Of a stretch of DNA of 64,000 bases, positions 22,981 to 24,507 are shown in pieces. A program made the position numbers and the translations under genes. The stretch is from Candidatus Gastranaerophilales bacterium. Its GTDB lineage: Bacteria; Cyanobacteriota; Vampirovibrionia; Gastranaerophilales; Gastranaerophilaceae. The notes under the pieces were generated by a model. It was given only the letters and a program-made list of their open reading frames with translations, searched no databases and was not told the DNA's origin. The DNA is taken from NCBI GenBank assembly GCA_944324475.1, contig CALUWK010000001.1, forward strand, positions 1 to 64,000, read 5' to 3'. How positions within the stretch are numbered: position 1 is the stretch's first letter; every line of letters starts with the position of its first letter.

Positions 22981-24507
22981 TTATAATTTTTTTGTAACAA
23001 GAGCAAAAATATCGTTATAACAAATACTTATCATTAGTATAATTAATAGGATAAAGAAAAAGTTATTGATTTTTTCGCTAAATTCTTTGTCTGGTTTTTT
23101 GCCTGTAAATTTTTCAATCAATAAAAACATAACATGTCCGCCATCTAATGCCGGTATGGGAAGAAAATTCATAATTGCAAGATTTAAACTTATCATAGCA
23201 GTTAAGAGAATGCCATTTAGCATACCTTTTGAAGCTATTATATCTCCTCCTACTTTGACAACTGCTATAACCCCATGCATATCTGAAGCCGAGACTTTAC
23301 CTGTTATCAGTTGCCATAAGCTATATAGCATTGTTGTTGTTGTGGTATAGAGATAGTTTATTGATTTTGTTACAATTTGTTTTGGGGTTTTTGTTTCTGT
23401 ATATACATCTTCTATTTTTAATAGGACTCCGAGTATTCCTTGTTTACTTACTATAATGTTATTAAATGTTAATTCTTTATTATTTCTTAAAATTGTTATG
23501 TTTAATGGTTTATATGTATCAGAAAGAGCTTTTGCAATGTCATTTAGAGTTGTTGGATTTTTAAATTTGTATGTTTTTTTATTATATAGTTCATTTCTTA
23601 GTTCAATTTGATTTTTGGTTAATTCAATTCCATCTTTTTTGTATTTTTCAAGACCTTTTAAAACGTTTTCATTAATATTTAAAGGTTTTTCAGGCATGGG
23701 AGAGGGCAGTTTTATTATACTGTTTGGTTTGATTTCATTTGTAATGTTTGGATTAATTTTTTTTAGTTCTTCGAGATTTTTTTTAATTAGATCTTCTTGG
23801 GCATAATCATCAAAAAGTTTTGAGTTTTTTGCAAAAAATGTTAGTTGATATAAAGAATCTATTTTTTTGTTGTTTATTTTTAAGAATTTGTCTCCTTTGA
23901 TTATTCCTGATTTATTTATGTTTGAGGTAATTTTATCGGAAAAACTATCTACATAAATATTTTGAGTTGAGGCAGGAAGTTTTTGGTAGTATGTTGCTGC
24001 AAAAATAACAAGAATAACTGCAAAAGCAATGTTCATAATAACTCCTGCGGAAACGATTATAAGTTTTTGCATAATGGTTTTGTTTTCGTATAATTCTGGT
24101 GAATTGGCAGGTAAAGTTTCATAATCTTCGCACACTTCTGCCCTCGAGCCGTTCGCTTCGCTGTCGCTTGCTCCTTGGCTCTCGGGAGTACGGTCTTTGG
24201 GCTGTCCGCTGAAGCTCAACGCTTCACCGTCACGCCCTTCGCACACTTCTGCCCTCGAGCCGTTCGCTTCGCTGTCGCTTGCTCCTTGGCTCTCGGGCTC
24301 TGCAAATGAGACGTAACCTCCGAATAAAAAAGCATGTAAATAAAATACCGTATTACCCCATTTAAAAAGTTTCCAAGATGGACCAATCGGCATTCCTATT
24401 CCAAAGCGAGTAACTCTTACACCAAAAATTCTTGCAGCAATAAAATGTCCTATTTCATGTACTAAGACAAGCAGGCTTATTAAAATAATCATTATTAGTT
24501 GGTTCAT
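22981..24507 (-). CDS. rseP: RIP-type site-2 protease RseP/YaeL with an in-frame repeat insertion
   Basis: 508 residues, longer than most bacterial homologues (about 350-450). The zinc site is HEIGH (17-21) in the first membrane helix; the second metal motif is NFLPIPALDGGH near the C-terminus. Between them lies a PDZ region enlarged by a helical insert. Residues about 71-127, just after GGYVSFAE, are an extra stretch encoded by a GC-rich 111-bp repeat. The family cleaves anti-sigma factors and signal-peptide remnants in the membrane. Catalytic motifs are intact, so it is probably active. Confidence 0.92.
   Translation of the reverse strand: MNQLIMIILISLLVLVHEIGHFIAARIFGVRVTRFGIGMPIGPSWKLFKWGNTVFYLHAFLFGGYVSFAEPESQGASDSEANGSRAEVCEGRDGEALSFSGQPKDRTPESQGASDSEANGSRAEVCEDYETLPANSPELYENKTIMQKLIIVSAGVIMNIAFAVILVIFAATYYQKLPASTQNIYVDSFSDKITSNINKSGIIKGDKFLKINNKKIDSLYQLTFFAKNSKLFDDYAQEDLIKKNLEELKKINPNITNEIKPNSIIKLPSPMPEKPLNINENVLKGLEKYKKDGIELTKNQIELRNELYNKKTYKFKNPTTLNDIAKALSDTYKPLNITILRNNKELTFNNIIVSKQGILGVLLKIEDVYTETKTPKQIVTKSINYLYTTTTTMLYSLWQLITGKVSASDMHGVIAVVKVGGDIIASKGMLNGILLTAMISLNLAIMNFLPIPALDGGHVMFLLIEKFTGKKPDKEFSEKINNFFFILLIILMISICYNDIFALVTKKL
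24126..24297 (-). repeat. GC-rich in-frame repeat inside rseP (61-bp unit twice, 111-bp period)
   Basis: The 61-bp units at 24126-24186 and 24237-24297 are identical; the 50-bp spacer belongs to the same insert. By hand count 39 of 61 bases are G or C, against an AT-rich background. Both copies encode ESQGASDSEANGSRAEVCE in the rseP frame, and 111 bp is 37 codons, so the frame is kept. The spacer has an inverted repeat GAAGC-GTTGA-GCTTC. The element resembles protein-coding palindromic elements such as the Rickettsia ones. Confidence 0.85.

Follow-up and report, generated by a model that had tools for sequence, protein, structure and literature searches.

The rseP gene of this uncultured Candidatus Gastranaerophilales bacterium, a relative of cyanobacteria from the gut, raises the question of how a GC-rich palindromic repeat came to lie in frame within it. 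The window, i.e. the whole stretch of 64,000 nucleotides that we analysed, contains a reading frame at 22981..24507 on the minus strand, open over its full length and coding for a 508-aa site-2 protease, identified as RseP by Pfam (Peptidase_M50) and by NCBIfam (TIGR00054 RseP, above cut-off). Within this gene, the 172 bp at 24126..24297 (minus strand) have a GC content of 0.628, against 0.281 in the remainder of the reading frame and a maximum of 0.494 in any other 172-nt segment of the 64 kb. The longest exact repeat of the region is 61 bp long (GC 0.639), with starts at 24126 and 24237 and therefore a period of 111 bp. A sequence-only reading had described two identical 61-bp units at 64% GC, in frame in rseP, and this description is exact (24126-24186 and 24237-24297). 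Each unit consists of a 51-nt hairpin module, called A, and of the initial 10 nt of a following module, called B. Read on the gene strand, the order is A-B-A followed by a 10-nt B remnant, a layout given by the exact repeat, nhmmer matches and a covariance-model match (G000:C1:24188-24301). The first A module (24247..24297, minus strand) folds as a hairpin, CCC-GA-GAGCC ... GGCTC-GA-GGG, according to the RNA fold and to the structure and covariation of the family. The 59-nt B module (24188..24246, minus strand), delimited by profile and covariation, has the helices GUGUG/CGUAC, GGGC/GCCC and GUGAAGC/GCUUCAGC. The exact repeat then defines a second A (24136..24186, minus strand), identical to the first, and a truncated second B reduced to its first 10 nt (GTGTGCGAAG; 24126..24135, minus strand). 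Our best explanation, to which we give a probability of about 0.7 as a whole, is that the insert belongs to a family of mosaic, non-autonomous, hairpin-forming repeats of one Gastranaerophilales genus, built of A and B modules often followed by a third module, C; that these mobile-type structured repeats insert with help in trans; and that the insertion is tolerated in rseP.

The element is dispersed. Using blastn with the 172 bp, we found five places in the window's genome (G000; 64 contigs, 1.72 Mb in total). Matches occurred in 19 of 97 genomes, a count that includes the window's; 18 of these 19 belong to one and the same genus. No other copy of the family lies within the 64-kb window. An iterated profile collected 79 B modules in a first set of loci, and a covariance model of the A+B unit (about 115-120 nt) gave 595 matches, as the sum of the per-genome counts, in 26 of the 28 genomes of the genus. 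Eight of these matches are in the window's genome; positive genomes have 3 to 58, for an overall range of 0 to 58. The dispersal of a GC-rich palindromic element in the genome and the genus, which the sequence-only reading had proposed to look for, is thus borne out, and the opposite outcome, a unit confined to this place and shared by every rseP orthologue, is contradicted both by the dispersed copies and by rseP itself, which carries the element in only 4 of the 28 genomes. In a sample of the whole order, searched with stricter filters than the genus, the covariance model matched 17 of 146 genomes and 9 of 40 genera, two of the matches being close to the threshold. Contigs C14 and C35 of G000, as well as many further contigs, terminate within element arrays, where the draft assemblies of the genus break; the copy numbers are therefore lower bounds. 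An assembly artefact is unlikely for the rseP array, because the same A-B-A array occurs in a separate related assembly (G001, locus L034) and other arrangements occupy the same site in G002 and G023. A phage or plasmid origin was rejected, as the 172 bp were unmatched in phage and plasmid records (one sensitivity setting each) and the B-core pattern had no exact match in viral contigs (a single sensitivity). Among the open-access papers listed for Gastranaerophilales and Melainabacteria, none was, to judge by its title, about such repeats.

The copies share a conserved fold. In an alignment of 48 distinct B modules, 93.8% of the cells are paired, with double-sided changes in 11 of 17 pairs; for 52 A+B units, these values are 92.5% and 27 of 35 pairs. 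No shuffle reached the observed pairing or covariation, for B alone or for A+B, the aligned sequences being kin and the shuffle counts not probabilities. In controls with slid partners, pairing fell to 23-44% for A+B and ranged from 23% to 50% over both sets. Helix 2 of B alone displays G-C, C-G, U-A, A-U and U-G pairs. Moreover, the predicted stability of the sense strand exceeds that of its complement in all 61 units, with RNA as well as with DNA parameters (mean RNA z of -3.98); the copy in the window alone has a z of -2.76 as RNA and of -0.65 as DNA. The hairpins thus show strong compensatory change, and the element is a structured single strand favouring one of the two strands. A known structured RNA family was excluded with Rfam 15: in scans of 18 loci sets, no family reached its gathering score over the element, and only tRNA, tmRNA and RNase P RNA reached theirs.

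We then considered the host gene. The loop that follows the GGYV motif of RseP, readable in all 28 genomes of the genus, has 74, 74, 140 and 115 residues in the four genomes with the element (G000, G001, G002 and G023, respectively; GC 53-57%), and 22-54 residues, typically about 33, in the remaining 24 (GC 22-37%). The insert had been said to add about 57 residues; the 172 bp do encode this number, but the loop of the window's protein exceeds the typical length by only about 40. The arrays differ, with A-B-A in two genomes and longer mixtures of A and B in the others, and all four are open. In a structure model of RseP, residues 74-128 have a pLDDT below 50 and no secondary structure except one two-residue bridge, this stretch lying between strands that end at residue 68 and a helix that starts at 145. 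We used the model solely for the disorder of the insert, because its mean pLDDT is 64.6, from an alignment of 13 sequences. The solved Aquifex homologue (9j82) aligns on both flanks, in segments that lie only about six residues apart. The insertion in frame in a tolerant loop is thus supported, this loop, which we take to face the cytoplasm, being variable across the 28 genomes and predicted to be disordered. Most likely, the translated stretch serves no purpose by itself and is a disordered spacer that the protein tolerates.

The frame itself, on the other hand, does not come from the repeat. A 37-codon period preserving the frame for any copy number had been proposed, and it is not intrinsic to the family: only 8 of 26 B-to-B spacings outside rseP are multiples of three, the three residue classes being evenly filled (8, 9 and 9). 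We therefore rejected the idea that a codon period is built into a mobile, protein-coding repeat, and such codon-blind spacing indicates that the frame in rseP is kept by selection. In addition, 33 of 61 A+B units are without an open sense frame, so that open rseP arrays need suitable module variants as well as selection. The same figures weigh on the stricter proposal of a protein-coding repeat selected for its spread in genes and always in frame, to which one could attribute the in-frame arrays, with different module mixes, in the rseP of four species and one more possible case, in a reading frame of G017 with a prepilin-like start. To survey the sites, we fetched 120 stretches around matches, picked mainly from the best matches and not a random sample. 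Blocks were defined there by HMM (130 in 121 loci), and genes by a simple rule on reading frames. Among these 130 blocks, only the four in rseP are securely in frame inside a coding sequence, in addition to the weak G017 case; nearly all the others are intergenic. A strict coding reading is thus very improbable and already largely contradicted, and the expected family of elements in unrelated genes, always in frame, was not found. A more fitting description of the family is a mosaic of hairpins located at transcript ends and only rarely inside coding sequence. As for the G017 locus (L162:1720-1910, minus strand), a 672-aa reading frame has MKKNSK on one side of the element and a prepilin-like GFSLVEIL on the other, with the element in frame; the Pfam match of this reading frame is weak and below cut-off. 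There the element would extend the leader peptide to about 50 residues, and the start of translation might fall inside it; this second in-frame coding case is possible, and weak.

Between genes, the element has a marked preference for the ends of transcripts. Excluding blocks close to the fetched ends left 111, of which 89 lie outside reading frames with features on both sides. In 28 of these 89, the first A starts in the interval from -30 to +5 nt relative to the stop codon of a sense upstream gene, against a single case in antisense. It starts 0-5 nt past the stop in 19 blocks, whereas random positions and orientations within the same spacers gave a mean of 2.7 (maximum 7 in 2000 draws). An earlier and looser count, made from the starts of HMM matches, placed 33 of 57 blocks within 15 nt of the stop; these 57 blocks with a sense upstream gene represent 40 gene clusters, 18 of which show the adjacency. 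Genes marked in this way, among the examples scanned, encode ribosomal proteins S8 and L6, DnaA, lysyl-tRNA synthetase, gyrase B, FlgC, glutamine synthetase, a PpiC isomerase and a radical-SAM protein, and for some genes the stop codon is supplied by the element. A terminator-like hairpin with a T run directly precedes the first A at 10 of 100 junctions, two pairs of which look orthologous, compared with 216 of 20000 random noncoding positions (1.1%). The 5' junction is of no recognised type in 46 of 125 classified blocks, some of these being terminators caught only by the separate terminator count. Part of the preference for stop codons and terminators may reflect survival, since the positions that follow them are also the least harmful for insertions; the sense bias and the short distance argue that survival alone does not account for it.

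Genes for structured RNAs are also concerned. At several tRNA loci, the element is flanked by direct repeats of the leader and the initial 10-14 nt of the tRNA, and the tRNA that follows is intact. This arrangement was found for tRNA-Leu (L053, L056, L135, L151), tRNA-Pro (L057, L060, L064, L055, L200), tRNA-Met (L077, L132), tRNA-Thr (L188) and tRNA-Ala (L155). In RNase P RNA, the element sits inside a 5' helix, P3, in the window's genome among others. From 26 loci in 25 genomes, 25 loci were readable and 14 of them carry the element (11 by HMM and 3 by eye, in G004, G018 and G027); in the other 11, a short helix, AT-rich in most, takes its place. Two different RNase P RNA loci, L209 and L233, one with and one without the element, were observed in G019, reflecting either a second copy or contamination. 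For tmRNA, the element was restricted to the 3' flank, where the end of the gene is repeated: in the window's genome (L128:1780-2300), an element block is surrounded by repeats of the 3' end (tag ANNVVKADFAPRAIAA) that extend about 100 bp further.

These sites could also be read as those of a functional element of RNA 3' ends, a barrier to exonucleases or an attenuator of translation at stop codons comparable to the REPs of Escherichia coli, spread by selection for this function and present in rseP as a by-product. The structure of the sense strand would fit such a role, as would the 28 sense stop codons against one in antisense, and published REPs at most 15 nt from a stop codon affect translation (PMC12306157). 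However, the copy number varies from 0 to 58 among congeners, copies also occupy RNase P RNA, tRNA leaders that have been duplicated and a coding sequence, and orthologous sites are often empty. For instance, the element lies directly past the stop codon of the radical-SAM gene in 5 of the 25 genomes where the site is readable (G000, G001, G002, G004 and G020; three of the 28 are unreadable), and G023 and G006 are without it. Presence and absence at orthologous sites represent gain or loss. We consider a spread through 3'-end function to be unlikely. At the radical-SAM site of G023, a small hairpin with a B loop can be read from the sequence and is possibly a remnant.

The composition of the arrays is variable. 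After 143 full B modules, we found an A-like module in 61 cases (by a loose rule that takes in a few tRNA-flank sequences), a C module in 38, another sequence in 33 and a cut-off in 11. C modules contain GACGT and are of two types, GCGACGT..ACAGGAGC or CCGCCGT..ACAGGCGG. At L086:900-1030, L079:2270-2450 and L190, extra hairpin modules with arms GGTGCGATAACGAGC..GAGTTAAGCACTACG or GTGTGTGAAG..CGTAACCG share junctions with A, B and C, and the family is thus larger than our model covers. The identity of B modules is 0.808 within genomes versus 0.730 between genomes (a difference reached in 0 of 500 label shuffles), and identity between orthologous sites is as low as 0.63, which points to recent spread or homogenisation in each genome. 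Homogenisation within genomes, the identity of the two A copies and the variation of array composition between species at one site would all agree with modules that entered rseP from other copies in the genome, by gene conversion or homologous recombination and in the absence of any transposition. Such exchanges need flanking homology, yet the sites are unrelated, and a sense bias at stop codons and terminators is not expected from them. Recombination probably explains the turnover of arrays and not the first insertion; as a full account of the rseP modules, it is quite improbable.

Finally, we looked for a mobiliser. The Y1 (RAYT/REP) transposase domain PF01797 was found in a single one of the 28 genomes of the genus, which is not that of the window, and a REP transposase was therefore rejected in this role. 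The reverse transcriptase domain PF00078 is present in 12 of the 28 genomes; it is absent from the high-copy genomes G007 and G027 and from G000, and present in the zero-copy genomes G010 and G022. Its occurrence thus bears no relation to copy number, and a reverse transcriptase was rejected as well. Searches of the 28 genomes with these two domains thus identified no mobilising gene. In a search for target-site duplications around 111 blocks, 23 scored at least 20, the majority of them at tRNA genes or between the modules of arrays; a uniform duplication was rejected, direct repeats being mainly at tRNA genes. We observed no event of transposition.

Starting from the observed dispersal, conserved structure, strand preference, sense site preference, presence and absence at orthologous sites and greater likeness within genomes, the mobile-type repeat that we favour could have behaved as follows. 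Now and then, the structured sense strand, as RNA or single-stranded DNA, would insert at exposed hairpins or transcript ends through an enzyme supplied in trans, giving rise to new copies. Arrays would then lengthen or shorten through recombination between A modules, and copies would survive where harm is small. In rseP, one insertion in the ancestry of G000, G001, G002 and G023, or several, would have fallen in the variable loop that separates a membrane-associated beta hairpin from the next transmembrane helix; each later change of modules would have been held in frame by selection. A more specific version, which we regard as rather unlikely, sees in the family a structured RNA that is mobile: it would be attached in sense orientation to transcripts, at their 3' ends or at exposed hairpins, and then copied into the chromosome by an enzyme. 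The transcripts concerned would be mRNAs at their stop codon, terminator ends, 5' fragments of tRNAs and the helix of RNase P RNA; the family would represent a new kind of RNA-targeted, retroelement-like repeat, and its in-frame coding insertions would be accidental.

Among known systems, a resemblance to the palindromic elements of Rickettsia had been pointed out. The elements of Rickettsia and Wolbachia measure about 100-150 bp and lie between genes or in frame in solvent-exposed protein regions (PMC2229807, PMC3767692), and those of Rickettsia occur in frame in protein genes and also in tmRNA and RNase P RNA (PMC2229807, a review; see PMC3767692). The resemblance holds for a dispersed palindromic repeat of similar size (here 595 copies of an A+B unit of about 115-120 nt) and for host sites, a protein gene and RNase P RNA being common to both and tmRNA being touched here only in its 3' flank. 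It does not extend to in-frame insertion in many unrelated genes (here rseP, in four of the 28 genomes, and a single weak case elsewhere). Furthermore, the present family belongs to another phylum, is a mosaic of separate A, B and C hairpins and strongly prefers stop codons, terminators and tRNA starts; the likeness is one of description. Protein-coding palindromes being known from Rickettsia and Wolbachia in the same sources (PMC3767692, PMC2229807), this gut Gastranaerophilales genus provides a separate case. The shared and peculiar host sites (a loop of a housekeeping protein, RNase P RNA and the surroundings of tmRNA) suggest a general route for short hairpin repeats into AT-rich genomes, and the sense junctions at stop codons and terminators offer a testable handle on the movement of elements without an enzyme of their own.

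Other repeats share further features. REPs are often near stop codons and sometimes provide them (PMC3733652, PMC12306157), and a mosaic of palindromic units near stop codons, some supplying the stop, is also what we observed; unlike REPs and BIMEs, the modules are longer here (about 51-59 nt) with multi-helix folds, and the Y1 (RAYT) transposase is lacking in 27 of 28 genomes. As regards the tetranucleotide at the hairpin foot of REPs, GTAG or CGTC, no conserved GTAG was found in the 14 nt located 5' of the first A, and the C modules contain GACGT. The BOX elements of pneumococci are likewise small and modular (boxA-boxB(n)-boxC), with variable internal copy number and predicted RNA folds (PMC3049150); the comparison is by description, their host is unrelated, and here A recurs inside arrays and junctions are at stops and terminators. 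The GC clusters of yeast mitochondria, GC-rich mobile palindromes whose units merge and shuffle (PMC4478555), show a similar merger and shuffling but in an organelle instead of a bacterium; this likeness is again by description, and the mechanism is unsettled in both. Group IIC introns insert after intrinsic terminators (PMC7161350), which recalls the 10 terminator junctions out of 100 found here; by contrast, the window's genome has no PF00078 reverse transcriptase match, the A+B unit has only about 120 nt, and no group II intron reached the gathering score in the Rfam scans of the 18 loci sets. Since it shares features with Rickettsia palindromic elements, REPs and BIMEs, BOX elements, GC clusters and group IIC introns and corresponds to the full definition of none, we place this family among the small palindromic mosaic repeats.
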